Source of the DNA: Streptococcus oralis
GTDB lineage: Bacteria; Bacillota; Bacilli; Lactobacillales; Streptococcaceae
Direction: 5' to 3'
NCBI RefSeq assembly: GCF_002386345.1
Contig: NZ_CP023507.1
Location: 248,001 to 312,000 of the forward strand
Length of the DNA: 64,000 nt
The notes beneath the pieces were generated by a model. It made no database searches. It worked only from the letters and a program-made list of their open reading frames with translations, and was not told the origin of the DNA. The position numbers were made by a program, and so were the translations under genes. Shown piece by piece: positions 2,198 through 17,959 of the stretch; within the stretch, counting starts at the first letter, position 1; every line of letters begins with the position of its first letter.

Positions 2198-2977
2198 ATG
2201 GCTAAACAAGATATAGCTATGCAAGTACTGCAACAAGTGGTGAAATTACCCGTGGTCAAAGTTGATCGAGAGAAATTTTTAGTAGAAAAGTTTTCAAAGG
2301 AATTAGACCGTAAGGATATTGCAACCTTATTAGAACAAGGGCCGACTTCTTTGTTACCTCAGGAAAGCTTGGACCGAGTGGCAAAGGCCTGTATTAAGGA
2401 CAATGTATTGCTGGCCAGCGGCACTTCGGTATTGGCAGGTCTACCTGGAGGTCTTGCCATGGCGATCACCATTCCAACAGATGTAGCCCAGTTTTACGCT
2501 TTCTCATTAAAACTAGCTCAGGAACTAGGGTATATTTACGGATTTGATGATCTTTGGGCATCGCGCAATGAGTTAAGCGAGGAAGCTAAAAACACACTCC
2601 TACTGTATCTCGGTGTGATGCTGGGAGTAAATGGTGCAGGTGCTCTGCTTCGATCAGGTGGTGTGACAGTAGCCAAGCAAGTCATAAAAGTAGTGAACAA
2701 GAAAGCTTTGACAAAGACGCTCTGGTATCCTATTTTAGAGAAAATTTTGAAAATTTTTGGTGTTAATCTGACAAAAGGAGGCCTAGCCAAAGGGATGGGG
2801 AAAGTGATCCCTATCCTAGGTGGAGTCATTTCTGGTGGCTTAACCTTTGCGACCATGAAACCGATGGGAGAAAGATTGCAACAGGAATTGTCCAAGCTAG
2901 TCAACTACAATGAAGTGCAATATCAAAGAGACGTTGATACTATTCGAAAAGAGGTCGAAATCATCGAAGGAGAGTAA
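2198..2977 (+). CDS. EcsC-like conserved protein
   Basis: The 259-residue protein resembles the EcsC family by its general pattern. A charged N-terminus (about 1-70) is followed by a hydrophobic Gly/Ala-rich segment (about 80-100, LASGTSVLAGLPGGLAMA), the IPTDVAQFYAF motif typical of the family, and a second hydrophobic glycine-rich stretch near 200-222. EcsC-type proteins are associated with membranes, but their biochemical role is not established. The start at 2198 follows GGAG at 2189-2192. The stop is immediately followed by the ATG of a small gene, so the two are probably cotranscribed. The family call is from memory; no function is proposed. Confidence 0.7.
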   Translation: MAKQDIAMQVLQQVVKLPVVKVDREKFLVEKFSKELDRKDIATLLEQGPTSLLPQESLDRVAKACIKDNVLLASGTSVLAGLPGGLAMAITIPTDVAQFYAFSLKLAQELGYIYGFDDLWASRNELSEEAKNTLLLYLGVMLGVNGAGALLRSGGVTVAKQVIKVVNKKALTKTLWYPILEKILKIFGVNLTKGGLAKGMGKVIPILGGVISGGLTFATMKPMGERLQQELSKLVNYNEVQYQRDVDTIRKEVEIIEGE

Positions 2978-2978
2978 T

Positions 2979-3161
2979 ATGGGATTCATTAAAATTCTAG
3001 CCAAGACTTACGGGAATTACTTTTTTACAATGCAAGGTTTAAAAGTGATGAAAACAATGAAAAAAGACGACAATGCTCTAGTAGGTTTCGGGAAAGTACT
3101 GCTTGCTGACAAGTTGATGGATGTAGCCCAGTGGCTCGCAAAACCAGATGATAAGGAATAA
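2979..3161 (+). CDS. Small conserved hypothetical protein
   Basis: This 60-residue, lysine-rich protein begins MGFIKILAKTYG. Its ATG lies two bases after the upstream stop, and the ribosome site GAAGGAGAG sits inside the end of the EcsC-like gene, so translational coupling is likely. A longer frame from 2910 runs inside the upstream gene and was not used. No domain is recognised. A strong terminator follows, so the pair forms a two-gene operon. Confidence 0.7.
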   Translation: MGFIKILAKTYGNYFFTMQGLKVMKTMKKDDNALVGFGKVLLADKLMDVAQWLAKPDDKE

Positions 3162-3175
3162 CTTGAAATGAAAGA

Positions 3176-3206
3176 AACTAGCAGGAACTCTTCTGCTAGT
3201 TTTTTA
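3176..3206 (+). terminator. Rho-independent terminator
   Basis: Stem AACTAGCAG/CTGCTAGTT (3176-3184 with 3193-3201) followed by a run of T. It closes the EcsC-like operon. Confidence 0.85.
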
Positions 3207-3248
3207 ATCTCTTCCCATATGGTATAATATAAGCAGTAAAATCATTTT

Positions 3249-3399
3249 ATACTCTTCGAAAATCTCTTCAAACCACGTCAGCTTCACCTTGCTGTAGGTA
3301 TGGTTACTGACTTCGTCAGTTCTATCCACAACCTCAAAACACTGTTTTGAGCAACCTGTGGCTAGCTTCCTAGTTTGCTCTTTGATTTTCATTGAGTAT
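3249..3399. repeat. RUP-type intergenic repeat, copy 1
   Basis: The element starts ATACTCTTCGAAAAT and ends ATTTTCATTGAGTAT, which are imperfect terminal inverted repeats. The interior (ACCACGTCAG, CTGACTTCGTCAG, CTCAAAACACTGTTTTGAG, GCTAGCTTCCTAGTTTGCTC) is shared with the copy at 23278. From memory this is the streptococcal RUP family, short non-autonomous elements thought to be mobilised by an IS630-like transposase. It sits directly upstream of the DUF1858 gene and may carry or displace that gene's promoter. Confidence 0.8.
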
Positions 3400-3421
3400 T
3401 AGAACATACATGGAGGTCGTC

Positions 3422-3655
3422 ATGGATAATATCATCGATGTGTCAATTCCCGTTGCAGAAGTGGTGGATAAGCATCCAGAAGTCTTGGAAATCCTAGTAG
3501 AGCTGGGTTTTAAACCACTTGCTAACCCCTTGATGCGCAACACAGTCGGTCGCAAAGTATCGCTCAAACAGGGTTCTAAACTTGAAGGAACTCCTATGGA
3601 CAAGATTGTCCGCACGCTAGAAGCGAACGGCTATGAAGTGATTGGATTAGACTAA
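3422..3655 (+). CDS. DUF1858 domain protein
   Basis: The 77-residue protein reads MDNIIDVSIPVAEVVDKHPE and continues with the LVELGFKPLANP pattern typical of DUF1858. These small domains accompany hemerythrin or redox proteins. The ATG at 3422 follows GGAGGT (3412-3417), a strong ribosome site; the frame also opens at 3392 inside the upstream repeat, which is unlikely to be used. The stop TAA shares one base with the ATG of the next gene, so the two are translationally coupled and probably act together. Function is unknown. Confidence 0.85.
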   Translation: MDNIIDVSIPVAEVVDKHPEVLEILVELGFKPLANPLMRNTVGRKVSLKQGSKLEGTPMDKIVRTLEANGYEVIGLD

Positions 3656-4989
3656 TGGCAGATGAACGGATTCATATCCTACGGGATATTTTGTTAGAAT
3701 TGCACAATGGTGCCTCTCCTGAGTCAGTTCAGGAGCGTTTTGATGCGACTTTTACAGGTGTGTCAGCCATCGAGATTTCCCTCATGGAGCACGAGCTGAT
3801 GAACTCAGACTCAGGTGTCACCTTTGAAGATGTCATGGAGCTCTGTGATGTCCATGCCAATCTTTTTAAAAATGCAGTAAAGGGCGTCGAAGTAGAGGAT
3901 ACCGAACACCCTGGACACCCAGTTCGCGTCTTCAAGGATGAAAATCTGGCTCTCCGTGCAGCCTTGATTCGCATTCGGAGATTGTTAGATACCTATGAGT
4001 CTATGGAAGATGAGGAAATGCTGGCAGAGATGCGTAAGGGTTTGGTTCGTCAAATGGGGCTGTTGGGCCAATTTGATCTCCACTACCAGCGCAAGGAAGA
4101 GCTCTTTTTCCCCATCATGGAGCGTTATGGACACGATTCACCTCCAAAAGTTATGTGGGGAGTGGATGATCAGATCAGAGAACTCTTTCAGACAGCTCTA
4201 GCGACGGCTAAGGCACTACCAGAAGTGGCGATTAACACTGTAAAGGAGGCCTTTGAAGCTTTTGCGACAGAGTTTGAAAGTATGATTTTCAAGGAAGAGT
4301 CCATCCTACTCATGATTCTCCTTGAGTCTTTCACCCAGGATGACTGGATTCAGATTGCGGAGGAGAGCGATGCCTACGGCTATGCCATCATCCGTCCGTC
4401 AGAGAAATGGGTGCCAGAACGTCAGAGTTTCGTTGAGGAAAAGAGCGCAGAGGAGCCCGTGCAGCTAGACACGGCTGAAGGTCAAGTTCAGCAAGTCATC
4501 AATACGCCTGAAGGCCAGTTTACCATTACCTTTACCCCTAAGGAAAAGGAAGCGGTGCTGGACCGCCATAGTCAACAGGCTTTTGGCAATGGCTATCTCT
4601 CAGTAGAGCAGGCCAACCTCATCCTCAATCACCTTCCTATGGAGATCACCTTTGTCAATAAAGACGATATTTTCCAGTATTACAATGACAATGCGCCAGC
4701 TGATGAGATGATTTTCAAACGGACGCCGTCCCAAGTCGGGCGCAATGTAGAACTCTGCCATCCGCCTAAGTACCTAGAAAAGGTGAAGGCCGTTATGCAA
4801 GGTCTTCGTGAAGGGGTCAAGGACAAGTATGAAATGTGGTTCAAGTCAGAGTCGCGAGGCAAGTTTGTCCACATCACCTATGCTGCGGTACACGATGAGA
4901 ACGGAGAATTTCAAGGCGTGCTAGAGTATGTTCAGGACATCCAGCCCTATCGTGAGATTGATACGGACTACTTCCGTGGATTAGAATAA
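3655..4989 (+). CDS. DUF438 / hemerythrin / PAS domain protein
   Basis: The 444-residue protein has three visible parts. DUF438 covers about 1-70. A hemerythrin-like four-helix domain covers about 80-225, with His and Glu ligand-type residues in DVHANLF, DLHYQRKEELFFPIMERYG and MIFKEESILLMILLE. A PAS-type sensor domain covers about 310-430 (MEITFVNKDDIFQYYND; EYVQDIQPY). Hemerythrin domains bind a di-iron centre and sense or store oxygen or nitric oxide, so a cytosolic redox or gas-sensing role is plausible but inferred. It follows the DUF1858 gene with a one-base overlap, a pairing common in Firmicutes. Confidence 0.85.
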   Translation: MADERIHILRDILLELHNGASPESVQERFDATFTGVSAIEISLMEHELMNSDSGVTFEDVMELCDVHANLFKNAVKGVEVEDTEHPGHPVRVFKDENLALRAALIRIRRLLDTYESMEDEEMLAEMRKGLVRQMGLLGQFDLHYQRKEELFFPIMERYGHDSPPKVMWGVDDQIRELFQTALATAKALPEVAINTVKEAFEAFATEFESMIFKEESILLMILLESFTQDDWIQIAEESDAYGYAIIRPSEKWVPERQSFVEEKSAEEPVQLDTAEGQVQQVINTPEGQFTITFTPKEKEAVLDRHSQQAFGNGYLSVEQANLILNHLPMEITFVNKDDIFQYYNDNAPADEMIFKRTPSQVGRNVELCHPPKYLEKVKAVMQGLREGVKDKYEMWFKSESRGKFVHITYAAVHDENGEFQGVLEYVQDIQPYREIDTDYFRGLE

Positions 4990-4998
4990 GGAGAATCA

Positions 4999-5253
4999 AT
5001 GAGTTACGAACAAGAATTTATGAAGGAATTTGAGGCCTGGGTTAATACCCAGATCATGATCAACGACATGGCGCACAAGGAAAGTCAAAAAGTCTACGAA
5101 GAAGACCAAGACGAACGTGCCAAAGATGCTATGATTCGCTACGAGAGCCGCTTGGATGCTTATCAGTTCTTGCTTGGTAAGTTTGAAAACTTCAAAGCAG
5201 GCAAGGGATTTCATGATCTGCCAGAAGGCTTATTTGGTGAGCGAAACTATTAA
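4999..5253 (+). CDS. DUF1912 family protein
   Basis: This 84-residue acidic, helix-rich soluble protein begins MSYEQEFMKEFEAWVNTQIM. I associate it with the DUF1912 family, found almost only in streptococci and their relatives. The start follows AAGGAGAATC and lies nine bases after the DUF438 stop, so it belongs to the same transcript. No catalytic motif is visible and no function is known to me. Confidence 0.75.
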   Translation: MSYEQEFMKEFEAWVNTQIMINDMAHKESQKVYEEDQDERAKDAMIRYESRLDAYQFLLGKFENFKAGKGFHDLPEGLFGERNY

Positions 5254-5268
5254 AATTCAGATACTTTC

Positions 5269-5297
5269 TTGATTTTTTGCCAAAATCTTGATAGAAT
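5269..5297 (+). promoter_or_regulatory. Promoter of the HhH-domain gene
   Basis: TTGATT (5269-5274) and TAGAAT (5292-5297) with a 17-base spacer, about 50 bases before the ATG at 5351. A short inverted repeat AATCC/GGATT followed by T lies between promoter and gene. Confidence 0.6.
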
Positions 5298-5350
5298 ATC
5301 TTTATTAAATCCTTGTCAGAGCAGGGATTTTTTATTGAAAGGATTTTATC

Positions 5351-5746
5351 ATGTCAAAGAAACTCCAACGTAAAAAACAATTGCGAAATAGCCTTCGTCG
5401 TTCAGGTGCATTTTCAAATGCTGTAAACAAGGTTGTCGAAGAAACAAAAAAAGTTGTGAAGCATGCTGAAAAAGCTGCAAATGAGGCAGGAAAAGCAGTC
5501 TCTAAGCAAGTAGAAAAAGCTGTAGAAGCAACTAAAGAGCAAGCCCACAAGCTTACAACTTCTGTTGAAGATTTCGCAGCTGACCTAGGTGGACTTCCAC
5601 TTAATCGTGCTAAAACTTTCTATGATGAAGGTATCAAGTCGGCTGCTGACTTTAAAAATTGGACTGAAAAAGAACTCCTTGCCTTGAAAGGAATCGGCCC
5701 AGCTACCATTAAGAAATTAAAAGAACATGGAATCAGCTTCAAGTAA
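5351..5746 (+). CDS. Lys/Ala-rich protein with C-terminal helix-hairpin-helix
   Basis: This 131-residue protein has a very basic N-terminus (KKLQRKKQLRNSLRRS), then a long Ala/Lys/Glu-rich helical stretch (about 25-75) with repeated VEKAVEATK-like units. The C-terminal domain (about 78-131) contains LLALKGIGPATIKKLKEHG, a helix-hairpin-helix signature that usually contacts the DNA backbone. The layout recalls a histone H1-like tail joined to a small DNA-binding module, so nucleoid association or a DNA-repair accessory role is possible but only inferred. It has its own promoter and precedes the valS T-box leader. Confidence 0.7.
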   Translation: MSKKLQRKKQLRNSLRRSGAFSNAVNKVVEETKKVVKHAEKAANEAGKAVSKQVEKAVEATKEQAHKLTTSVEDFAADLGGLPLNRAKTFYDEGIKSAADFKNWTEKELLALKGIGPATIKKLKEHGISFK

Positions 5747-5759
5747 TTTTTCTTGACCC

Positions 5760-5788
5760 TTGCATTTCCGAGAAAAACTTGCTACAAT
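5760..5788 (+). promoter_or_regulatory. Promoter of the T-box/valS operon
   Basis: TTGCAT (5760-5765) and TACAAT (5783-5788) with a 17-base spacer. The predicted start is near 5795, at the 5' edge of the T-box leader. Confidence 0.7.
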
Positions 5789-5794
5789 AGAGCC

Positions 5795-6008
5795 ATTAGA
5801 GGTGTTTTGAATCCCACATTTTACAGAAAGTGGCGGTGCTGAGAAGTCCACAAATGTGTCAAAACTGGTTGCTGATGATGAAAAATGAAATAAAAGTGTC
5901 TTTGTATATCCTTCAAAGACAAGAGTTGCGGGCATCTCTGCCCGAAATTGGGTGGTACCGCGGATAACATATTCGTCCCTGTCATGTAGATGGCAGGGGC
6001 ATTTTTTT
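5795..6008 (+). ncRNA. T-box leader (valyl-tRNA synthetase type)
   Basis: The conserved T-box sequence GGGTGGTACCGCG is at 5950-5962. It is followed by a terminator with stem CCCTGTCAT/ATGGCAGGG (5977-5985 with 5990-5998) and a T run. Stem I features include GTGCTGAGAA and a lower helix GTTTT/AAAAC. On the 3' strand just before AAAAC is GTC (5858-5860), a plausible valine specifier. Uncharged tRNA-Val would pair with the specifier and T-box and prevent termination. The identity as a T-box is firm; the specifier position is inferred and fits valS further down the transcript. Confidence 0.9.
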
Positions 6009-6028
6009 ATGGGAAGCGAGGTAGGAAG

Positions 6029-6595
6029 ATGGAGCAAGCACAATTACCAGAACGATTAAAAACCGATCGGCTCGTCTTACGAGTCCGTACAATAGCTGAT
6101 GCCGAGGATATTCATGCCTATGCTAGTCTGCCAGAAGTTTCCTACCCAGCAGGCTTTCCGCCCGTCAAGACCTTGGAAGATGAGATTTATTATCTGGAGC
6201 ATATTCTGCCCGAGCGTAATGAAAAAAACAATCTCCCAGCGGGCTATGGAATTGTCGTTAAAGGGACCGATACTATCATCGGCTCTGTTGATTTCCCTCG
6301 TCGTCACGAGGATGATGTCTTGGAGATTGGCTATATCTTACATCCAGACTATTGGGGTCTAGGTTATGTTCCAGAAGCAGCGCGTGCCTTGATTGACTTA
6401 GCTTTTAAAGAATTGAATCTGCATAAGATTGAACTGACTTGTTTTGGCTACAATGTCCAAAGTCAACGAGCTGCAGAGAAACTTGGCTTTACCTTAGAAT
6501 CTCGCATAAGAGACCGCAAAGATGCCCAAGGCAACCGCTGTGATGATTTGAGATATGGCTTGCTGAGGAGTGAGTGGGAGAGTGAAAACTGTTAG
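6029..6595 (+). CDS. GNAT family N-acetyltransferase (RimJ/RimL-like)
   Basis: The 188-residue protein opens with the RimJ/RimL-type pattern ERLKTDRLVLRVRTIADAED. The acetyl-CoA region DYWGLGYVPEAARALIDLAF is near residue 110, and NVQSQRAAEKLGF lies near the C-terminus. It probably acetylates a protein N-terminus or small molecule; the substrate is unknown. The ATG at 6029 follows GAGGTAGGAAG. An in-frame ATG at 5990 lies inside the T-box terminator and was rejected. It is the first gene of the T-box transcript, so it should respond to valine starvation together with valS. Confidence 0.85.
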   Translation: MEQAQLPERLKTDRLVLRVRTIADAEDIHAYASLPEVSYPAGFPPVKTLEDEIYYLEHILPERNEKNNLPAGYGIVVKGTDTIIGSVDFPRRHEDDVLEIGYILHPDYWGLGYVPEAARALIDLAFKELNLHKIELTCFGYNVQSQRAAEKLGFTLESRIRDRKDAQGNRCDDLRYGLLRSEWESENC

Positions 6596-6661
6596 TTGAA
6601 CTGTTCGAGAAAATCGAACAGTTGGGATGTATTGAAGAATTTCGAAAGCGAGGTGAGAGGA

Positions 6662-7660
6662 TTGGAAACAAGCCAGATTATTACTCTAATTAGTGGAGTA
6701 GGAATAGGGGCTATCTTGAGTGCGATTTTAGTGTTTGTTAATAATAGTAAAAGAAATCAACTTGATTATATTACTAAAGAACGCTCTGAATGGAGAAAAA
6801 ACATAAAGTTGATAATTGTTGATTTGCTAAATGGAGAAAATAGGGAATCTGCAGTAAATAGTCTTAGAACACAAATCAATCCATACGGCTATTGTAGAAA
6901 TATTAAATATACTAATGAGTATTACATGAAAGATGGACATATTTGGGACCTTTTAAATGATTTTGATTACTCAGAAGAAAAATCGCAAATACTCAGTCAG
7001 TATCTAAGGTTACTCTTTAAATATGATTGGGAACGTTCAAAAAATGAGGTTAGAATTAATAATAATTTCTTATGGAATTTTTTAAGATGGGGATTGATAA
7101 TTCTAAACTTAATAATGTTATTTTGGGCGGGAAATGTGAATAATGAAGTAAATATGTATTTATCATTATTTTCAGTTATTCTTTTATTTTTACAACCGCA
7201 CCTAATAGAATTTCTATCTAAACTCAATTTTGATTCGCCTAAAGAAAAGACTATTTTAATATTAACCTTTTTAGTAGGATTTGTATCACCTTATCTTTAT
7301 TCACTTTATTTAACATTTATTTTATTAAATTTTTATAATCTATTTAAATTGAATTTTCTGGTAAATATCTTCCCGTTAATTTTGATGTTAATTATAATTT
7401 CTTCCGAACTTTTGCTTATTTATCAAATTTTTAATATAAACTATAAATATATTTCTCAAATAAAAAAGATAGAAAAAAATAGGACTGATTTAGAGTTAAA
7501 ATATTACGAAATTTATAATTTAAACTCTAGATTGAAACAAAAATCATGGGATATAAAGTATAATATAACAAAAGAAGATGTTAATAAACTAAAAAAAGAA
7601 CAGATAAAATTACGCAAGAAAATAAATAAGAAACTAAACAAGAAATTAAAAAGAAACTAA
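6662..7660 (+). CDS. AT-rich multi-pass membrane protein of unknown function
   Basis: The protein is about 332 residues. A single N-terminal transmembrane segment (about 3-26) is followed by a cytosolic stretch with ITKERSEWRKNIK. Four further hydrophobic segments follow (about 137-157, 162-185, 196-226, 232-258), and the tail (about 260-332) is strongly Lys/Asn-rich and probably coiled coil. I chose TTG at 6662 because GAGGTGAGAGG sits just upstream; the frame also opens at TTG 6596 but without a ribosome site. Base and codon use are far more AT-rich than the flanking acetyltransferase and valS genes, suggesting acquisition. It lies between the T-box leader and valS. A defence or membrane-effector role is conceivable but not shown. 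Confidence 0.65.
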   Translation: METSQIITLISGVGIGAILSAILVFVNNSKRNQLDYITKERSEWRKNIKLIIVDLLNGENRESAVNSLRTQINPYGYCRNIKYTNEYYMKDGHIWDLLNDFDYSEEKSQILSQYLRLLFKYDWERSKNEVRINNNFLWNFLRWGLIILNLIMLFWAGNVNNEVNMYLSLFSVILLFLQPHLIEFLSKLNFDSPKEKTILILTFLVGFVSPYLYSLYLTFILLNFYNLFKLNFLVNIFPLILMLIIISSELLLIYQIFNINYKYISQIKKIEKNRTDLELKYYEIYNLNSRLKQKSWDIKYNITKEDVNKLKKEQIKLRKKINKKLNKKLKRN

Positions 7661-7678
7661 TTATTAAGGAGAACACAC

Positions 7679-10330
7679 ATGTCTAAAGAACTTTCACCTA
7701 AATACAATCCAGCCGAGGTTGAGGCTGGTCGTTACCAAAAATGGCTTGATGCCGATGTTTTCAAGCCTTCAGGAGATCAAAAGGCTAAGCCTTATTCAAT
7801 CGTCATTCCACCACCAAACGTAACTGGGAAACTCCACCTTGGTCACGCTTGGGATACGACGCTTCAGGATATCATCATCCGTCAAAAACGCATGCAAGGC
7901 TTCGATACACTTTGGCTTCCAGGTATGGACCACGCGGGGATTGCCACTCAGGCTAAGGTTGAGGAGCGCTTGCGTGGTGAGGGCATTAGCCGTTACGATC
8001 TTGGTCGTGAGAAATTCCTCGAGAAAGTCTGGGAATGGAAAGACGAATATGCTACTACTATCAAGGAACAATGGGGCAAGATGGGGCTCTCTGTAGACTA
8101 TTCTCGCGAGCGTTTCACGCTTGACGAAGGTTTGTCAAAAGCGGTTCGAAAGGTCTTTGTGGACCTTTACAAGAAAGGCTGGATCTACCGTGGTGAGTTT
8201 ATCATCAACTGGGACCCAGCGGCTCGCACAGCCCTTTCTGATATCGAGGTGATTCACAAGGATGTCGAAGGTGCCTTCTACCACATGAACTACATGCTAG
8301 AAGACGGTTCACGTGCCCTTGAAGTTGCGACAACTCGTCCGGAGACCATGTTTGGGGACGTTGCTGTTGCGGTTAATCCAGTAGACCCACGCTACAAGGA
8401 CTTGATTGGTAAACACGTCATCCTTCCAATCGCTAATAAATTGATTCCAATCGTTGGAGACGAGCATGCAGATCCTGAGTTTGGTACGGGTGTCGTGAAA
8501 ATCACGCCTGCCCATGATCCAAACGACTTCTTAGTTGGTCAACGCCACAACTTGCCACAAGTCAATGTCATGAACGATGACGGAACCATGAACGACTTGG
8601 CCTTCGAATTTGCAGGTATGGATCGTTTCGAAGCTCGTAAGGCAGTCGTTGCTAAGTTGGAAGAAATCGGTGCCCTTGTTAAAATCGAAAAACGTGTCCA
8701 CAGTGTTGGTCACTCAGAGCGTACAGGTGTGGTGGTTGAACCACGCTTGTCTACGCAATGGTTCGTCAAGATGGACCAATTGGCTAAAAATGCCATTGCC
8801 AACCAAGACACAGAGGACAAGGTAGAATTCTACCCACCCCGTTTTAACGATACCTTCCTCCAATGGATGGAAAATGTCCACGACTGGGTAATCTCACGTC
8901 AGCTCTGGTGGGGTCACCAAATCCCTGCTTGGTACAATGCTGAGGGTGAAATGTACGTCGGCGAAGAAGCACCTGAAGGTGACGGATGGACTCAGGACGA
9001 AGACGTCTTGGATACTTGGTTCAGTTCGGCCCTTTGGCCATTCTCAACCATGGGCTGGCCTGATGTCGACTCAGAAGACTTCAAACGTTACTTCCCAACT
9101 TCAACCTTGGTAACAGGTTACGACATCATCTTCTTCTGGGTGTCTCGTATGATCTTCCAATCCTTGGAATTCACTGGCCGTCAGCCATTCCAAAACGTTC
9201 TGATTCACGGTCTCATTCGTGACGAGCAAGGACGCAAGATGTCTAAATCTCTCGGCAATGGGATTGACCCGATGGATGTTATCGAGAAATACGGTGCCGA
9301 TGCCCTTCGTTGGTTCCTTTCAAACGGTTCTGCACCAGGGCAAGACGTGCGCTTCTCTTACGAGAAAATGGATGCTTCATGGAACTTCATTAACAAGATT
9401 TGGAACATCTCTCGCTACATCCTCATGAATAATGAAGGTTTGACCCTTGAGCAAGCAACTGCTAATGTCGAAAAAGTGGTTAACAAGGAAGCTGGAAATG
9501 TCACAGACCGCTGGATTCTCCACAACCTCAATGAAACGATCGGAAAAGTCACTGAAAACTTTGACAAGTTTGAGTTTGGTGTTGCTGGACACATCCTCTA
9601 CAACTTCATCTGGGATGAGTTTGCGGACTGGTATGTTGAGTTGACCAAGGAAGTCCTTTATAGCGATAACGAAGAAGAGAAAGTTATCACACGTTCTGTT
9701 CTCCTTTACACATTGGACAAGATCCTTCGTCTCCTTCACCCAATCATGCCATTCGTGACAGAGGAAATCTTTGGACAAATCTCAGAAGGCTCTATCGTGA
9801 CAGCAGAATACCCAACTGTCAACCCAGCCTTTGAAGACCTTGCTGCCCACACTGGTGTGGAAAGCCTTAAAGATTTGATCCGTGCTGTTCGCAATGCGCG
9901 TGCGGAAGTAAACGTTGCACCAAGCAAGCCAATCACCATCCTTGTGAAAACAAGCGATAGCGACTTAGAAGCCTTCTTTAACAGCAATGTCAACTACATC
10001 AAACGCTTCACAAATCCAGAACACTTGGAAATCGCATCAACCATCCCTGCACCTGAACTCGCTATGTCAAGCGTCATCACAGGAGCAGAAATCTACTTGC
10101 CACTGGCAGATCTCCTCAATGTCGAAGAAGAACTCGCTCGTCTCGACAAGGAACTGGCTAAATGGCAAAAAGAACTGGACATGGTAGGCAAGAAACTCTC
10201 TAACGAACGCTTCGTAGCCAATGCCAAACCAGAAGTCGTCCAAAAAGAACGCGACAAGCAAGCCGACTACCAAGCGAAATACGATGCGACTGTAGCACGT
10301 ATTGATGAGATGAAGAAGTTGGTGAAATAA
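7679..10330 (+). CDS. valS: Valyl-tRNA synthetase
   Basis: ValS charges tRNA-Val and edits threonine. The 883-residue class I synthetase shows the HIGH signature as HLGH in [13 protein letters not shown] (about 42-54), the CP1 editing domain (about 190-340), KMSKS (about 520-524) and a C-terminal coiled coil rich in Lys/Glu (about 815-883). The ATG follows TAAGGAGAACACAC. It is the third gene after a T-box leader, the expected control for this enzyme. A strong terminator closes the operon. Confidence 0.98.
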
Positions 10331-10336
10331 ACACAG

Positions 10337-10362
10337 AAACACGGTGATAAACCGTGTTTTTT
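10337..10362 (+). terminator. Rho-independent terminator of valS
   Basis: Stem AAACACGGT/ACCGTGTTT (10337-10345 with 10351-10359), loop GATAA, followed by T. It separates the valS operon from the restriction island. Confidence 0.9.
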
Positions 10363-10417
10363 ACTTTAATTTGTGATAAAATTGTAATAATAAATTTTAA
10401 TGACTGAAAGAGAATTC

Positions 10418-11602
10418 ATGAGATATATAGATTTATTTGCAGGTTCCGGTGGTTTATCCTTAGGGCTTTATAATGCTGGGTTGCATGGAATATTTGCAGT
10501 TGAAAAAAATAAAGATGCTTTTAGTACTTTAAAATACAATTTAATTGAAAGAAAAAATCATTTTTCATGGCCGAATTGGCTTGAAATGAAAAATTGGGAT
10601 ATAAACGAACTTATAGAAATTCATAGCGGGGAACTTGCTGAATTAAACGGTTCTGTTGATTTAGTTGTAGGTGGTCCACCATGTCAAGGATTTTCCATGG
10701 CTGGAAAGAGAAAAAATAATGATATCAGAAATCAATTAATGCATTCGTATATTGAGTTTATCAAATTAGTTCAACCTACTATGTTATTTTTTGAAAATGT
10801 TCAAGGATTTACTGTAGGTTTTAAGGATCATAAGGATAAACAAAAATATTCTGATATTCTTGTTTCGGAATTACATGAATTAGGATATAACTTAGACTAT
10901 AAAATTGTTACTATGTCAGAATACGGTGTTCCTCAAAATAGGAAACGGTTCATTCTATTTGCATCAAAAAATGGGGCCTATGAGATATTTTTTGACGAAT
11001 TATTGAAAAATAAAGCTTGTTTCTTGAGGGATAGAGGACTAAAAATACCAATTACAATTTCTCAAGCTATTAATGATTTGAAAAAAAGTCATGGAGAAGT
11101 TGATAGTAAAGACACTAAGGCATTTAAAAATGGGAAGTATGGTCGAGCAACTTCAGCATATCAAAAATTAATGAGAAATAACATTGAACGAGGCGCTTTC
11201 CCCGATAGTCATCGATTCGCGAAACATAAAAGTGAAACAATAGATTTATTTAAACGTTTAATGACTGCTTCCGAAAAAAGTATACGAATTACACCATCTA
11301 TGAATCTGGTTGAAGGTTTAAAGAAGCGTGGAGTCACTCCTTTAAAGAAAAATTCCATTTGTAATACGATTACTTCCATTCCAGATGATTATATACATTA
11401 TGATGAACCTAGGATAATGACAGTTAGAGAACACGCTAGAATCCAAAGTTTTCCGGACAATTATGAATTCAAAGGACCGTATACTACGGGGGGTGAACGA
11501 CGAAAAACGGATGTTCCTCGATATACTCAAGTCGCTAACGCAGTACCGCCTTTGTTTGCGGAACAAGTTGGACTTACTTTGCTGAAGATTATTAGGGAGT
11601 AA
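10418..11602 (+). CDS. DNA (cytosine-5) methyltransferase, island copy 1
   Basis: This is a C5-cytosine methylase of about 394 residues. Motif I is IDLFAGSGGLSLG (residues 4-16), motif IV is GGPPCQGFS with the catalytic Cys near residue 89, motif VI is ENV near 125, motif VIII is QNRKR, and motifs IX-X are TVREHARIQSFPD and NAVPP. The start at 10418 follows GAAAGAG; an in-frame ATG at 10400 has no ribosome site. The target-recognition region between motifs VIII and IX does not reveal the site. The gene is AT-rich and is followed after three bases by the GHKL kinase gene, so it belongs to that cassette rather than obviously to the endonuclease further on. Confidence 0.93.
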   Translation: MRYIDLFAGSGGLSLGLYNAGLHGIFAVEKNKDAFSTLKYNLIERKNHFSWPNWLEMKNWDINELIEIHSGELAELNGSVDLVVGGPPCQGFSMAGKRKNNDIRNQLMHSYIEFIKLVQPTMLFFENVQGFTVGFKDHKDKQKYSDILVSELHELGYNLDYKIVTMSEYGVPQNRKRFILFASKNGAYEIFFDELLKNKACFLRDRGLKIPITISQAINDLKKSHGEVDSKDTKAFKNGKYGRATSAYQKLMRNNIERGAFPDSHRFAKHKSETIDLFKRLMTASEKSIRITPSMNLVEGLKKRGVTPLKKNSICNTITSIPDDYIHYDEPRIMTVREHARIQSFPDNYEFKGPYTTGGERRKTDVPRYTQVANAVPPLFAEQVGLTLLKIIRE

Positions 11603-11605
11603 TTT

Positions 11606-13729
11606 ATGGCTGAATTTACTTTTAGAACAAATTCAAAGTTAAAAACACTAGTTGGACAAGAATTAATAACAAATAACAATATAGCGATATTTGAATTGAT
11701 AAAAAATTCATATGATGCTGGCGCAACAGAAGTAGATATTCAATTTCATGATTTTTTATTTGTAGACAAAGGGTGGAAATCTTCTGAAAATTCAAAGATT
11801 AAAATCATCGACAATGGAATTGGTATGACTGTTGAAGAAGTGGATAAGTATTGGATGGAACTTGGAAATTCCTCTAAAGAGAAAAATAAACTACTTCGTT
11901 TGGATTCTAAAAAGATGGGTGAATTAATCACTCGATTTGCAAACGGTGAAAAAGGCATTGGTAGATTTGGTGTTGATAAAATTGGTGAGGAATTAATTTT
12001 AGAATCTATTGGACAATCTAAACTAAATGAGAAGGTGATAGTATATTTTGATTGGAATAAATATGATGATAGGAGTAAACTATTACAAGAAATAAAAAAT
12101 GAGTATTATATTGAATTTCTTGAACAAAATATTTCCTCTGGTTTATCTCTAACAATAAAAAAATTACGAGATGAATGGGAGAATAACAATATTGAGAAAC
12201 TAAAAAAAGATATTTCAAAATTTTTATCTCCCATTGATGATGAATCAGATTTTAAAATTAAAATATCATTTTACGTTGAAGGAGAGGTAAAAGAGTCTAC
12301 TCACTTAAAAAATGATACTTTTGAGCATTTGAAATGTAAAATTGAAGCAGACCTGGGATCAGATGGTATAGCTGAAATATCAATCAAAATAGATGATGAA
12401 ATAGAATATGTTGAGCGTGTACAAATCTTCGAAAAACAATCTCCTTTTGGTAGAACATTTGTTGAGATTTATTATTTAGATAAAGGTGAGAAAATTTCTT
12501 TCACGAGACGGATGGGAATTCGTCCCTCTGATTATGGCAATATAAAAATTTTTAGAGATAAGTTTCGTATTGTACCTTATGGAGAACCTCATAACGATTG
12601 GCTAGAAATTGATAGACATCATGCTCAGGGAATGTTTAGAACTTTTGGTACGAGAGATTTAGTGGGCAATGTTTTTCTAGATGGTAAAGATTTATCACAA
12701 TTAGATGCGTTAAAAGAAGCAACTGATAGGGTTGGCTTTATTGAAGATCGACCAGAATTTGAATCATTAAAAGATTTTCTGTGGAACTTAATTTCAATGT
12801 TTGAAAACTTTATCTTCAATAGAATAAAAAAACAAGCTCAGGATGGTTATGATACTGTTAAAAAAGAAACTTCAGAACTTAAAGTAGATATTGATACGAA
12901 GGTTAAAGAACTTAAAGATACTATTGATGGTTTAGTAATTGCACCTGAAGATAAGAAAATATTCTTAGATAATATTGCCTCCACAGAAGTCTTACTGAAT
13001 GATAGAATTGATAAGATTGAGAAGGCTTCTGATAAAATAGAATCTAAGATCAAAATTTATTCTCAGTTAAGTAATCGTGAAGGTATTTTATTTGAGATGC
13101 TTCATTCTATAAAAAATAAACTAGTTGTTCTTCAGGGACAATTAATTTATTATCAAATGATTATTGAAGAGAAGAATTTAGATATTGATTTAAGTGTTTT
13201 ATATACTTTATATGAAGATATTGCAAAATTAGTTGAAGGTTCCTTAGATAGAGTTAATTCTACAAAACTTCATAAAAAAAATGAAATTCTAAATGATATA
13301 ATTGATAGAATTTCTGATCAGTATGAATCATATCTACATCAAAAGAATATCAGTCTTGAGATTGTTTGTCCAAAAGAAACTGACCATGTAAAAGTTTTTT
13401 GTGCTAGAGAGTCATTACTAACAGTATTTGATAACTTGTTAAACAATTCAGTCAAAGCGCTAGAAGGGATTGATAATGCAAAAATTAGAATAATGATTCA
13501 ATTGAATGATAAAGAAATTGCAATCTATTTTTCAGATAATGGTTGTGGTATTCCAAAAGACAAATATGCCACTGTTTTTTCCTTGTGGAGTTCAGAAACG
13601 AGTGGTACAGGCATTGGGTTAGCATCCGTTAAAGAGAATCTAACAGATATTAATGGAACAATCCATTTAGTTGATATTGAGGAAGATGATTTTTCTACAT
13701 CTTTCTTAATAAAATTGCCTAGGAGATAA
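11606..13729 (+). CDS. Double-GHKL ATPase / histidine-kinase-like protein
   Basis: The 707-residue protein has two ATP-binding GHKL modules. The N-terminal one is HSP90/MutL-like: ELIKNSYDAGAT (E30, N34, D37), IIDNGIGM (about 67-74) and GEKGIGRFGVDKIG (about 114-127). It is followed by a conserved middle region (GNIKIFRDKFRIVPYGEP; DWLEIDRHHAQG). A coiled coil spans about 410-490. The C-terminal part is kinase-like: a candidate phospho-acceptor His near residue 500 in EMLHSIKNKL, an N box DNLLNNSVKAL (about 608), DNGCGIP (about 643) and SGTGIGLASV (about 666). No transmembrane segment is seen, so it is a cytosolic sensor. The receiver gene follows after two bases, which supports a phosphorelay. 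Confidence 0.85.
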   Translation: MAEFTFRTNSKLKTLVGQELITNNNIAIFELIKNSYDAGATEVDIQFHDFLFVDKGWKSSENSKIKIIDNGIGMTVEEVDKYWMELGNSSKEKNKLLRLDSKKMGELITRFANGEKGIGRFGVDKIGEELILESIGQSKLNEKVIVYFDWNKYDDRSKLLQEIKNEYYIEFLEQNISSGLSLTIKKLRDEWENNNIEKLKKDISKFLSPIDDESDFKIKISFYVEGEVKESTHLKNDTFEHLKCKIEADLGSDGIAEISIKIDDEIEYVERVQIFEKQSPFGRTFVEIYYLDKGEKISFTRRMGIRPSDYGNIKIFRDKFRIVPYGEPHNDWLEIDRHHAQGMFRTFGTRDLVGNVFLDGKDLSQLDALKEATDRVGFIEDRPEFESLKDFLWNLISMFENFIFNRIKKQAQDGYDTVKKETSELKVDIDTKVKELKDTIDGLVIAPEDKKIFLDNIASTEVLLNDRIDKIEKASDKIESKIKIYSQLSNREGILFEMLHSIKNKLVVLQGQLIYYQMIIEEKNLDIDLSVLYTLYEDIAKLVEGSLDRVNSTKLHKKNEILNDIIDRISDQYESYLHQKNISLEIVCPKETDHVKVFCARESLLTVFDNLLNNSVKALEGIDNAKIRIMIQLNDKEIAIYFSDNGCGIPKDKYATVFSLWSSETSGTGIGLASVKENLTDINGTIHLVDIEEDDFSTSFLIKLPRR

Positions 13730-13731
13730 AT

Positions 13732-14382
13732 ATGGAAAATGTTTTTAAAATTTTAGTAATTGATGATGAGCGACAGATAGAAAGTAACTTTCCACTATAC
13801 GAAATGCTCATTAAAAGAAAAGGAATAAATTCAAAATTTTCCTTGGTTTCTAATGAAAATGAGTATGAAACTATCAAACACGAAACTTTTGATGTTTTAA
13901 TGGTTGATTATAATTTAAGAAATGGTTTTTTTCAGTCTGCAGATAAGACTGTCGGGACCGATTTTATTCGTGATTTTAGAGAAGTCAATATGGTAGATAA
14001 AATTGTTTTTTATTCGACAGATTTCAAATACCAAAATAGAGTCACAAATATTGAAGCAAAATTAAATATTACTGACGAAGAGTTCTTCAGATTGATTAAT
14101 GACTATAAAATTGATGGGATAGTTCCTAAAAATAATCCTCATTTAATTGCAGATATTATCGAAAAATGTGTGAAGGATATTGATCCAATTATTCGATTTT
14201 TAAAGGAAACTAAATTAAAATATGAGAAGAGTGGTGACTATTTGTATTTTGAGTCTGATGGAACAGAGTACACAATTTCAGAAATTTTAAAAGAATATCA
14301 ACTAAATTCAGAAGTTGGAAAAAAATTTGGAGTAGAATTGCTAGAAACAATGTCTACCGTATTGTTAAACTATAAATATTAA
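13732..14382 (+). CDS. Atypical response regulator
   Basis: The 216-residue protein carries a receiver domain. An acidic pair in VIDDERQ (D11, D12), a phospho-acceptor Asp in MVDYNLR (D59), a Ser/Thr pair in FYST (95-96) and Lys in IVPK (K133) match the receiver catalytic set. The spacing is unusual: about 35 residues separate D59 from FYST and about 38 separate FYST from the Lys, so there are insertions. The C-terminal ~70 residues are not a recognisable DNA-binding HTH, so the output may be protein contact rather than transcription. It lies two bases after the GHKL kinase and eleven before the protease-like gene. Confidence 0.82.
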   Translation: MENVFKILVIDDERQIESNFPLYEMLIKRKGINSKFSLVSNENEYETIKHETFDVLMVDYNLRNGFFQSADKTVGTDFIRDFREVNMVDKIVFYSTDFKYQNRVTNIEAKLNITDEEFFRLINDYKIDGIVPKNNPHLIADIIEKCVKDIDPIIRFLKETKLKYEKSGDYLYFESDGTEYTISEILKEYQLNSEVGKKFGVELLETMSTVLLNYKY

Positions 14383-14392
14383 GGATGATAGT

Positions 14393-15058
14393 ATGCCTAT
14401 TGTGTTATTTAAAAATAGATTAGATGATAACATGAAACGATTTGGTAGTTTTTTAAAAAAAATACAAGATAATTCTACTAAAAGAAATATTAGCTTGATA
14501 TCCAGTGACAGAAAAAGAGATTATATATCGAATATTGACAGCAATAACACCAATATCTTTGTATGTCATGGTTCTAAAGATTCTCTCTACCATCGGTTTC
14601 ATTGTTCTCCAAAACAAACTTTGCTTGATGCTAACACTGTATTATCGTTAGGAAAAGTAATTGCTATATCTTGTGGAACTGCGAGATACTTAGGTAAGGA
14701 ACTTGTTCAGAATGGAAATTGTACAGTATATTTGGGTTTTAATACTAAGATACACTTTAATAAAAAAAACTCTAAAGATTATATCTCTCCTTACTATTCA
14801 CAGTATATAAAAGATCTATATAAGGAGGTTTTTGAAAATGTGCTTACTAAAGCAATTGACCATAGTTGGACATTTGAAAAAACCAGAAGAGTACTTGAAT
14901 GGGAGTTGAGAAAAAAATCAATACTCAAAGCAGAAATCAAAAAAAGAAACTATCCACATTTTTATAAAGCAAAAGAAATAAATCAAACTGTTGTAGCAGT
15001 TACAAATGTTGCTAAAAATATAGTAATACATGGAAACGGTGCAGAGAAAGTCGAATAA
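14393..15058 (+). CDS. Caspase/CHAT-like putative cysteine protease
   Basis: This 221-residue protein shows the caspase-fold dyad pattern: a hydrophobic strand ending in His-Gly (NIFVCHGSKD, His59), then 35 residues on a strand ending in Ser-Cys (VIAISCGTARYLGKEL, Cys94), followed by GNCTVYLGF, typical of CHAT/caspase-like peptidases. The C-terminal half is Lys-rich and may bind a partner. It is translated from its own site (AAGGATG) at the end of the kinase-receiver cassette. By analogy with bacterial CHAT effectors it could be a regulated protease causing growth arrest, but that is inference from fold pattern and context only. Confidence 0.65.
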   Translation: MPIVLFKNRLDDNMKRFGSFLKKIQDNSTKRNISLISSDRKRDYISNIDSNNTNIFVCHGSKDSLYHRFHCSPKQTLLDANTVLSLGKVIAISCGTARYLGKELVQNGNCTVYLGFNTKIHFNKKNSKDYISPYYSQYIKDLYKEVFENVLTKAIDHSWTFEKTRRVLEWELRKKSILKAEIKKRNYPHFYKAKEINQTVVAVTNVAKNIVIHGNGAEKVE

Positions 15059-15078
15059 TTTAGAAAGCAGGTAACTAC

Positions 15079-16299
15079 ATGACAAATTCTGTAAGTTCGA
15101 ACCGCTCTGAGAAGTACAACATTGCAGCTTTCTTCTCAGGTGTTGGGGGAATTGAGTTGGGATTTGAACAGACCAACGAGTTCAGAGTGGTGTATGCCAA
15201 TGAATTTGATAAGTATGCGCGTCAGACTTATCAGTTAAACCATCCAAATACCTATTTGGATGGACGTGATATTCACGATGTTCAGCCAAAGGATATTCCA
15301 GCTGAGCGCGTGGATGTGATTATGGGAGGTTTCCCTTGCCAGGCCTTTAGTATTGCGGGTTATCGCAAGGGGTTTGATGATGATCGTGGTGATCTTTTCT
15401 TCGAATTACTTCGGATGATTGAGGGATGTAAACCTCGTGCTATTTTCATCGAAAATGTCAAAAACATGGTCGGTCATGACCATGGCAATACCTTCAAGGT
15501 CATTCGTGAAGCTTTGACCGAGAACAACTACTTCATCAAGTGGAAGGTTCTCAACGGGAAAGACTATGGAAATATCCCTCAAAACCGTGAGCGTATCTAC
15601 ATTGTTGGCTTTGATACTAAGGAAGCTTATGACTTGTTTGAATTCCCAGAGGAAATCAAGCTGACTACGAGTCTTCAGGATGTGATTAACTTTGGCGATA
15701 AGCTAGACGAGGTTTACTACTACCGTGAAGGCAAGCAGAATTTCTACGACCAGTTGAAATTTGAAGTCACCAGTCAAGATACAGTTTACCAATGGCGCCG
15801 TCAATATGTCCGTGAAAATAAAAATGGTGTTGTCCCTACCTTGACAGCCAATATGGGAACAGGTGGACACAACGTTCCATTGATTTTGACGGACAGTGGT
15901 GAGATTCGTAAGCTAACACCGAAAGAAACCTTTAACGTTCAAGGCTACCCTAAATCCTTTAAAATCCCAGAAGGGGTTTCTAACGGTCAGCTCTACAAGC
16001 AAGCTGGAAACAGTGTGGTCGTGCCCGTGATTAAACGAATCGCAGAGAAAGTTGCCAAGGCCTTAAATGAAAGCCAAGGTCAATCTCAACTTGACCGCTC
16101 AGGGAAATTCGCCATTATCTATACCAAGATGAACGGCCAGTTTGAAGGGCAGTCCTATGTCAAGGACTTTGTGGAAAGCTATGACCAGGCTATGGAAAGA
16201 ATCAAGTCTTATGATGATGGTTTAGCTGTTTTATCGGACGAAGAGTATTTGAGATTTGTCAAAAAACAAGGTAAACTTGAATTTTACAGTATTAATTAA
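15079..16299 (+). CDS. DNA (cytosine-5) methyltransferase, island copy 2
   Basis: This 406-residue methylase has motif I AAFFSGVGGIELGFE (16-30), motif IV GGFPCQAFSIAG with catalytic Cys87, motif VI IENVKN, motif VIII QNRERIY, a target-recognition segment (about 215-275, with VYQWRRQYVRENKNG) and motif X QLYKQAGNSVVVPV. The C-terminal ~60 residues extend beyond motif X. Its base composition is closer to the host genome than the four AT-rich genes before it, so it may have arrived separately. With the endonuclease-like gene that follows a terminator it probably makes a type II restriction-modification pair. Specificity cannot be read from the sequence. Confidence 0.93.
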   Translation: MTNSVSSNRSEKYNIAAFFSGVGGIELGFEQTNEFRVVYANEFDKYARQTYQLNHPNTYLDGRDIHDVQPKDIPAERVDVIMGGFPCQAFSIAGYRKGFDDDRGDLFFELLRMIEGCKPRAIFIENVKNMVGHDHGNTFKVIREALTENNYFIKWKVLNGKDYGNIPQNRERIYIVGFDTKEAYDLFEFPEEIKLTTSLQDVINFGDKLDEVYYYREGKQNFYDQLKFEVTSQDTVYQWRRQYVRENKNGVVPTLTANMGTGGHNVPLILTDSGEIRKLTPKETFNVQGYPKSFKIPEGVSNGQLYKQAGNSVVVPVIKRIAEKVAKALNESQGQSQLDRSGKFAIIYTKMNGQFEGQSYVKDFVESYDQAMERIKSYDDGLAVLSDEEYLRFVKKQGKLEFYSIN

Positions 16300-16308
16300 C
16301 GAATATAT

Positions 16309-16339
16309 AAGAGGATTAGTGAAAAACTAATCTTCTTTT
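16309..16339 (+). terminator. Terminator between methylase 2 and endonuclease
   Basis: Stem AAGAGGATTAGT/ACTAATCTTCTT (16309-16320 with 16326-16337), one G-U pair, loop GAAAA, followed by T. It would limit transcription from the methylase into the endonuclease gene, a sensible arrangement for protecting host DNA first. Confidence 0.75.
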
Positions 16340-16369
16340 GATATACTGAAAATAGAAAAGAGGGTGCTT

Positions 16370-17959
16370 ATGTGGGAACATCTAAAGTCTGAACAAAAAG
16401 ATAAATACAAAACCTTAATTACCAACTTCGCTAGTTTGAGCCAAGCTTTCTCTCAAAAGGCAGAATCCGAAGACGAGGGACAAACAGAGAATTTTGTAGC
16501 TCCGATTGTCAATTCCAAATTTCAGGAAACTGTTTTTCAAAAAGCCTTTAATGCCGTCGGGGAAGATATTGCTAATACTTCCTATGATGCTTCTGTCGTT
16601 GTGGATGAAAATCATAAATACCTAGTGGGTATCAAGTCTTTTGGAATTAATTCTGGAGACCAAAAAATCGCTCAGTTTAAGAAAGATTCTCAATCTTGGA
16701 CGGACCTGTTGGGTGATATCAAGTTTCATGCAGATATTTCAGCGGATAAAGAATCAGCAGATAAGGAAAACTATCAACGCTATGAAGAGTTGGCACGAAA
16801 GATTGCGACTTTGAGAAACCAGAGAATTGAGTCCTCTAAGGCCCAAATCAAGGGTTTCATCTCGGATTCGGTCAATGTTGAAGCTGTTTACCATGTTTTG
16901 ATGCCAACACCAAAGGGAGAAAATCCTAAGATTTTTGTCGGCGAAACGACTTATTTACCAGTCGATATTGATAATCTGGTCATTGAAGGATCAACCACCA
17001 AAAACAATCCAACCAATTTTCGATTTACGGATGGACAGCACCACTACAAGTATACAGCAGCTGACAGCCAGCTCCACATGACTTTTAACAATAAAGACAT
17101 TGTTGTAGATACTTGGGACGTCCATTATATCGAGGATCCTTTTTCTCTCTTTGAAAATCTTCATTTACTGACCACTGAAAAGGATAAAACCGATATCTTA
17201 GAAACAGTGTCTTGGGTTATCACAGACAAACACGGAAATGTGGAAGAAAACTCTGGCTTCAATGCCTTTAACGGCGGTTCAAAATTAGCCAAAAAAGATC
17301 GCCTGCCTCGAATTTTAAAGATTCAAGATAAATTTAAGGATAGTCTGGCTCCAGAGGAACTAGCTTTTGTGACCTTCTCTCTGGAAGAAATACTCTTGAA
17401 GAAATGGACCAGCAAGGAAGAAAAAGCTCAGATGAAAGCTATTCGTGAGGATTTGATTCACTTTGTTCACAATACTGGCAATAAAAAACTCATTAAAGAA
17501 ATTGAACAGCTGGTTTATCGTCCAGTTAGCGAGGTTTACATTCCTCTGCCTGACTCCAAAAATTTCCATGATGAAAGACCTGATTTCTTTGGTCCTGGAT
17601 TTGGGACTTTTGAACTCGGTACCAAAAAACTAGCTCTACCGAAAGAGGAAAGAACCTTTAAGCTACGCTTCTTACCTTCTGGAGATGTCATCAATGCCTA
17701 TATCAACCAAGAAGCTGGTAAGGCGATTCAGTCAACTGATAAGCAAGAAATTCTTGGAAATTGGATCTTGCGTGGTGTTTTCCAGTTGAAGGAACGAGAA
17801 GTATTGACATGCCAACGACTCAATGAACTAGAAATCAATGGTATTCGATTGACCAAATTTACAAATGGCGAAATCGGGATTGAATTCATCTGGATTGATA
17901 TCGAAAATCCACCAAGCGACACCATCGGCTGGGTAGCAAAGAAAGAAAAAGTCCTGTAA
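16370..17959 (+). CDS. Putative type II restriction endonuclease
   Basis: The 529-residue protein directly follows a cytosine methylase. The N-terminal half has a nuclease-like pattern: NTSYDASVVVDENHKYLVGIKSFG (about 65-88), where YDA could supply the metal-binding Asp and GIKS the Lys of a PD-(D/E)XK core. The usual acidic residue before that Lys is Gly here, so the assignment is uncertain. The C-terminal ~150 residues (LRFLPSGDVINAYIN; GNWILRGVFQL) look like a DNA-recognition domain. The ATG at 16370 follows GAGGG; GTG at 16364 is less likely. The endonuclease role rests mainly on position beside the methylase. Confidence 0.65.
   Translation: MWEHLKSEQKDKYKTLITNFASLSQAFSQKAESEDEGQTENFVAPIVNSKFQETVFQKAFNAVGEDIANTSYDASVVVDENHKYLVGIKSFGINSGDQKIAQFKKDSQSWTDLLGDIKFHADISADKESADKENYQRYEELARKIATLRNQRIESSKAQIKGFISDSVNVEAVYHVLMPTPKGENPKIFVGETTYLPVDIDNLVIEGSTTKNNPTNFRFTDGQHHYKYTAADSQLHMTFNNKDIVVDTWDVHYIEDPFSLFENLHLLTTEKDKTDILETVSWVITDKHGNVEENSGFNAFNGGSKLAKKDRLPRILKIQDKFKDSLAPEELAFVTFSLEEILLKKWTSKEEKAQMKAIREDLIHFVHNTGNKKLIKEIEQLVYRPVSEVYIPLPDSKNFHDERPDFFGPGFGTFELGTKKLALPKEERTFKLRFLPSGDVINAYINQEAGKAIQSTDKQEILGNWILRGVFQLKEREVLTCQRLNELEINGIRLTKFTNGEIGIEFIWIDIENPPSDTIGWVAKKEKVL

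Follow-up and report, generated by a model that had tools for sequence, protein, structure and literature searches.

A DNA methylase, a double-GHKL kinase, a receiver and a caspase-like protease form a recurrent gene cassette in Streptococcus oralis, a candidate restriction-like defence system

The Streptococcus oralis DNA analysed here, 64,000 nucleotides long (assembly GCF_002386345.1, contig NZ_CP023507.1, positions 248,001 to 312,000) and hereafter called the window, contains a cassette of four co-directional open genes on the + strand, separated by gaps of 3, 2 and 10 bp. These encode, in order, a C5-cytosine DNA methyltransferase of 400 aa (MT1, 10400..11602), a double-GHKL soluble histidine kinase of 707 aa (11606..13729), a receiver, or response regulator, of 216 aa with Asp59 (13732..14382), and a caspase/CHAT-like protease of 221 aa with a putative His59/Cys94 dyad, which is the proposed effector (14393..15058). 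The GC content of the four genes is 0.331, 0.289, 0.270 and 0.290, compared to 0.413 for the window. A first-pass annotation had described four AT-rich, near-gapless genes for a methylase, a kinase, a receiver and a protease, and this is confirmed by the coordinates, GC content and domain matches; the residues it had singled out (His500 in the kinase, Asp59 in the receiver, His59 and Cys94 in the protease) are indeed found there. No transmembrane-like stretch was seen in the four proteins (highest 19-residue mean hydropathy 1.3), and neither Pfam nor PADLOC gave a nuclease domain match in the four genes. The cassette has a DNA methyltransferase in common with type II restriction-modification (R-M) systems, but a cognate endonuclease was not found within it.

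MT1 matches the C5 methylase family PF00145 with an E of 3.2e-57, and the Cys of its PPCQ motif is kept in 10 of 10 aligned cassette methylases. Nucleotide similarity to Streptococcus cuniculi and to genome G1227 starts at an internal ATG, at 10418, which is a possible alternative start of the gene. The kinase is composed of an N-terminal paraMORC/MutL-like ATPase (HATPase_c_3, residues 25-164), an H-box with His500, and a C-terminal HATPase_c (residues 602-706; both from Pfam). Residues N34, D69/G71/G73, G117/G119, H500, N614, D644/G646/G648 and G667/G669/G671 are invariant in all 12 aligned kinases. In the alignment, a conserved block at residues ~300-380 occupies the position where the S5 domain that follows GHKL in paraMORC proteins would stand. 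The kinase N-terminus is weakly similar to GHKL-type restriction enzymes (47 bits with the BbrUII/HgiDII model, for a cut-off of 550), and related kinases weakly match REase_II of PADLOC. Such resemblance agrees with a DNA-engaging module, without being a proof of it.

The 216-aa protein is only weakly recognised as a receiver by sequence (Response_reg, E 0.012, below cut-off); the receiver fold was recovered for it, and its Asp is invariant. No DNA-binding domain was recognised in it by Pfam and fold comparison, the last ~60 residues (about 153-216) being barely tested.

For the 221-aa protein, no Pfam match of note and no curated peptidase match was obtained, and among 7 scanned relatives the best curated peptidase match was Peptidase_C25, with an E of 0.12, below cut-off. 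An AlphaFold2 model was obtained with a predicted local distance difference test of 82.6 and a predicted template modelling score of 0.85. VIA comparison of this model gave caspase-like proteases in all 50 rows listed. His59 comes after strand 53-57 of the model, and Cys94 after strand 87-92; in the caspase/CHAT-like (clan CD) core, the His follows strand 3 and the Cys strand 4. The predicted caspase-like fold is thus supported, and the first-pass annotation, for which another fold would have been a contrary result, was right on this point. The protein could still be a catalytically dead or non-proteolytic adaptor, as a fold alone shows no function and proteolysis is here a prediction. This is most improbable, given that all 12 protease sequences, with identity down to 16%, keep His59 and Cys94, two residues singled out at a time when no relative had been found; only four other columns are invariant (M1, G60, G115 and F116; 6 in all).

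The first-pass annotation depended on the four genes recurring together, and this is borne out by 12 loci: the window, L003, L008 to L012, L026, L027, L028, L074 and L076. Kinase, receiver and protease are contiguous in all of them, and a C5 methylase is always upstream, directly next to the kinase in 10 of the 12. The methylase does not adjoin the kinase in L011, where there is an insertion, and in L076, which has two extra genes. Gaps measured in 10 loci ranged from -4 to 37 bp between kinase and receiver, and from -8 to 44 bp between receiver and protease. All four proteins have conserved active-site residues across the aligned loci. A search of genome contigs with the kinase N-terminus produced 7 loci, 5 of them with the full set, which belong to Streptococcus cuniculi (L008), to paenibacilli (L009, L010 and L011) and to a metagenome-assembled genome of Candidatus Symbiothrix (L012); no protease was found by tblastn in L013 and L014. 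L003, one of two near-identical records, was reached by tblastn with the protease. L026 came from a search of the order around the genome of L009 (matches in 3 of 344 genomes, one new), L027 and L028 from a search of the class around the genome of L012 (5 of 345 matched, 3 real, two new), and L074 from a phylum search (4 of 247 matched, 3 real, one new). In these five loci, found with the protease as query, kinase and receiver precede the protease each time. Finally, the kinase matched three viral loci, and one of them, L076, is a viral contig on which a methylase, a 360-aa gene, Vsr, the kinase, the receiver and the protease stand in one row (2289-8550). As the full row is carried by a viral contig, the cassette may travel on phage or prophage. 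In addition, Tn7-like transposition genes (TnsA, TniB/TnsC-like, TniQ and TnsD) adjoin the cassettes of L003, L009 and L010, and are a likely route of its spread.

The protease is rare: it was found in 1 of 59 relatives by single-sequence search and in 1 of 147 genus genomes by profile search, in both cases the genome of the window itself, the S. cuniculi protease having been reached by another route. A receiver search over 398 genomes of the phylum returned its own genome only. Scans of genome contigs with the single protease protein and of phages by tblastn gave no yield, nor did viral contigs scanned with pair A1. Weak matches to the protease profile in G486, G685 and G1314 were dropped, being short and partial with no cassette gene around. 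A Stenotrophomonas plasmid record carries the set, but a proteobacterial origin was rejected, and the record not counted as proteobacterial, because of the 32% GC around the cassette and of an annotated sporulation gene, ytvI. The Stenotrophomonas rhizophila label itself appears doubtful, for CP065518.1 with its low GC around the cassette and for CP031730.1 with its annotated ytvI. Separately, a short SIR2-family gene (PF02146) lies convergent and directly after the protease at L003:12682-13332, L009:9474-10142 and L026:7138-7779; it may be accessory or a separate cargo.

In the window, the cassette fills an exchangeable slot (10363..15060) with valS on one side and the following R-M pair on the other; near relatives have this stretch replaced whole. 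By blastn, flanks of ~92% identity end at window position 10362 in G1239 (L064) and 10370 in G1184 (L065), and resume at 15060 and 15061, respectively. The slot of G1239 is occupied by Hachiman (HamA E 6e-131, HamB E 0, PADLOC), that of G1184 by a C5 methylase unlike MT1, a kinase of double-GHKL type and a receiver-like protein ending in a HEPN-like R-N-x-L-A-H motif, and that of G026 (L067) by a 416-aa gene of no recognised kind. S. cuniculi has the cassette of the window behind valS, and its second methylase is reduced to remnants. In G1250 (L066), seen on the right side only, the genes before the same R-M pair are a methylase of PD-Lambda-5_B-like type and an AAA gene. In G1227 (L045), MT1 at 72.6% identity precedes a kinase from another branch and then a receiver that ends in a HEPN-like Rx4H tail, after which comes the second R-M pair (84% and 73%); valS does not adjoin these genes in the available stretch. 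In this streptococcal genus, the valS-to-R-M stretch is a hotspot of defence genes. One near relative with Hachiman in this very place, and another in which the same R-M pair has a PD-Lambda-5_B-like gene as its neighbour, bear out the defence setting assumed at first.

The type II R-M pair (15079..17959, + strand) starts 20 bp downstream of the cassette and consists of a second C5 methylase (PF00145, E 4e-85) and a probable restriction enzyme (REase; PADLOC REase_II, E 1.2e-21), with a GC content of 0.42 and 0.39. Its REase was found in 36 of 147 genus genomes (E<=1e-20), over most of its length in 26 and as fragments in 10. MT1 was found in 3 of the 147, at a cut-off (E<=1e-80) chosen to exclude other C5 methylases, each time with an adjoining GHKL kinase gene, and the kinase N-terminus in 6 (E<=1e-20). 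Only 2 of the 36 REase genomes also have MT1, and 2 of the 3 MT1 genomes have the REase. Membership of this pair in the cassette was rejected, as the REase is far wider spread and flanks other slot contents. From the slot swaps and these genome counts, we consider that the four genes are exchanged together, as a single unit, and that the R-M pair is a neighbour.

Other genes take the place of the protease in the wider kinase family. A kinase, a small receiver-position protein and an HNH protein follow each other on plasmids of Deinococcus gobiensis, Salipiger and Bacteroides finegoldii, the HNH assignment coming from Pfam for the first two and from annotation for the third. The small protein has a weak Response_reg match in D. 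gobiensis and B. finegoldii, the two that were scanned. A kinase match was present in 89 plasmid records. Of the 13 opened among them (12 if the second, near-identical record from Stenotrophomonas is left out), 1 had the protease and 3 had HNH; no effector frequencies are claimed, because the remaining opened plasmid loci gave no effector call. The kinase-like loci L006, L007, L014, L031 to L036, L047, L048 and L077 are likewise without a call on the following gene. In L013, Vsr comes after a longer receiver protein. A third arrangement is found at L045:3129-3959, L046:5397-6245 and L065:6678-7544, where receiver-like proteins adjoining related kinases have an invariant C-terminal R-N-x-L-A-H, a type of motif described for HEPN domains in PMC3710099. 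These proteins are apparently receiver-effector fusions of HEPN-like type, judging from their sequence. A PADLOC match to Csx1 was weak for L045 (E 0.0015) and absent for L065, L046 being outside the scan, and no Pfam family backs the HEPN reading. The longer receiver-position proteins of L013 (4366-5481) and L048 (5423-6622) share a C-terminal region that bears a TPSCD motif but matches no named Pfam family, and that may be a further fused output.

The signalling half of the cassette is not new, because the same three genes have been published. Bellieny-Rabelo et al. (2021, PMC8011034) report a HEF_HK / Response_reg_2 pair with a kinase-receiver linkage of 91.6% (644 regions, 628 strains), often with C5 methylases upstream and in an R-M neighbourhood. 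The pair shares with the cassette its upstream C5 methylase, its soluble kinase with HATPase_c_3, H-box and HATPase_c, and its adjoining receiver. The HEF_HK family (PF19191) did not match the kinase at E<=1 and hit one place elsewhere in the genome, below cut-off; Response_reg_2 (PF19192) had no genome match at E<=10, and no control genome passed the cut-off with either family. As the two families do not match, we regard the cassette pair as a divergent branch or a parallel form of the HEF_HK pair. Caspase, peptidase, protease, CHAT and phage are all absent as words from the main text of PMC8011034, and the output of the pair is not assigned in the sections covered. The first-pass annotation, which did not know this exact combination, thus remains correct for the protease only; as to a match with an already named system, the association of methylase, kinase and receiver is published, but not as a named defence system.

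The paraMORC GHKL ATPases (Iyer et al. 2008, PMC2292703) have in common with the cassette an N-terminal GHKL ATPase beside DNA methylases; their partners are helicases and nucleases, and the words "caspase" and "two-component" do not occur in that paper. Compared to the caspase-like defence effectors SAVED-CHAT and the TPR-CHAT of Craspase, the cassette has no SAVED, TPR or CRISPR match in Pfam, and its input is a kinase and a receiver. Detocs also uses kinase-receiver signalling for defence; it has three proteins, with the effector as a fusion to the receiver, and is not known to include a methylase. The cassette does have a methylase, and in 12 of 12 loci its protease is encoded by a gene of its own, apart from the receiver. 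No PADLOC match named Detocs was found in the window proteins, presence of Detocs in that 2023 library being unchecked. The protease combination and the slot were not described in titles and abstract openings of the openly searchable literature, which leaves subscription papers and most preprints outside, nor in the passages covered of PMC7159879, PMC8195603, PMC13092281 and PMC12839542. In PMC13092281 (DefensePredictor), HATPase and REC are among the legend abbreviations for predicted, unvalidated systems, which could overlap with the cassette.

Domain content, conserved active sites, linkage and exchange are direct observations, and with them we consider it reasonably probable that the four genes are a mobile defence cassette of restriction-like type, with a protease standing in for the nuclease. 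Going by its family, the methylase would mark host DNA, and the N-terminal GHKL ATPase of the kinase, with its S5-like part, would engage DNA and detect missing marks or phage DNA. Detection would lead to autophosphorylation at His500 and transfer to Asp59, as suggested by the invariant residues and the adjacency of the genes. The receiver, in which no DNA-binding output is recognised, is proposed to act by protein contact, activating the caspase-like protease, which would then cleave host or phage proteins and stop the infected cell. Several points weigh against this proposal. The DNA that is sensed, and the sign of the control of the relay over the protease, are steps that we only infer, and no evident protease substrate is found within the cassette. 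The protease model has lower confidence in stretches near the dyad; Foldseek on its own returned nothing at E<=0.001, with a sugar isomerase in the top row (E 0.008), and the sequence profile reached caspase-1 only at E 0.4-1.4, ranked below two phosphodiesterase chains (E 0.12). Lastly, the receiver of the window does have the full catalytic set first noted for it, but 3 of the 10 relatives aligned (L012, L027 and L028) lack the Lys-Asn motif.

If the sign of control were opposite, the phosphorelay would hold the protease off, and loss of kinase, receiver or methylation, upon plasmid loss or phage takeover, would free it, so that the cassette would mainly be a selfish, post-segregational killing module. 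This would suit an AT-rich cassette exchanged as a unit, with Tn7-like genes near it in three loci, and R-M systems are called selfish elements in the Discussion of PMC8011034. We nevertheless find it unlikely, as the HNH protein in place of the protease in other branches is what one would expect of an attack on DNA entering the cell, and Hachiman occupies the slot in a relative.

A regulatory role was also considered, in which kinase and receiver would control expression or activity of the methylase and of the neighbouring R-M genes, the protease trimming the kinase or the receiver and being no killing effector. Control of R-M by this signalling was suggested, as a speculation, in PMC8011034, and the second R-M pair is at hand 20 bp downstream. 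The lack of a recognised DNA-binding domain in the receiver (with the limit given above for its end), the REase being mostly without MT1, and the nuclease-type domains that take the place of the protease elsewhere make this role quite improbable.

Returning to the defence cassette, a broader proposal, which we make tentatively and give somewhat less than an even chance, is an immune class that could be called "phosphorelay restriction". In it, a methylase would set the self mark, a paraMORC-type kinase would read its absence, and His-Asp phosphotransfer would drive interchangeable effectors: the caspase-like protease, or, elsewhere in the family, an HNH nuclease or a receiver-fused RNase tail of HEPN-like type. 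As part of the same tentative proposal, the form found in the window would cleave protein in place of DNA, tying two-component signalling to a bacterial caspase. If this were true, methylation-based discrimination of self and non-self DNA could feed a phosphorelay in place of a nuclease, with the output set by swapping one gene, and the R-M-linked two-component pair described in 2021 would gain a concrete output. A caspase-like protease would join the kinase-receiver repertoire, and the role of GHKL ATPases in R-M operons, an old question, could be put to the test on just four genes with a known set of residues.

Before valS, the window also has an AT-rich open reading frame of 354 aa (6596-7660), whose product contains long hydrophobic stretches and weakly matches the SLATT domain of NCBIfam (E 4e-4, below cut-off).

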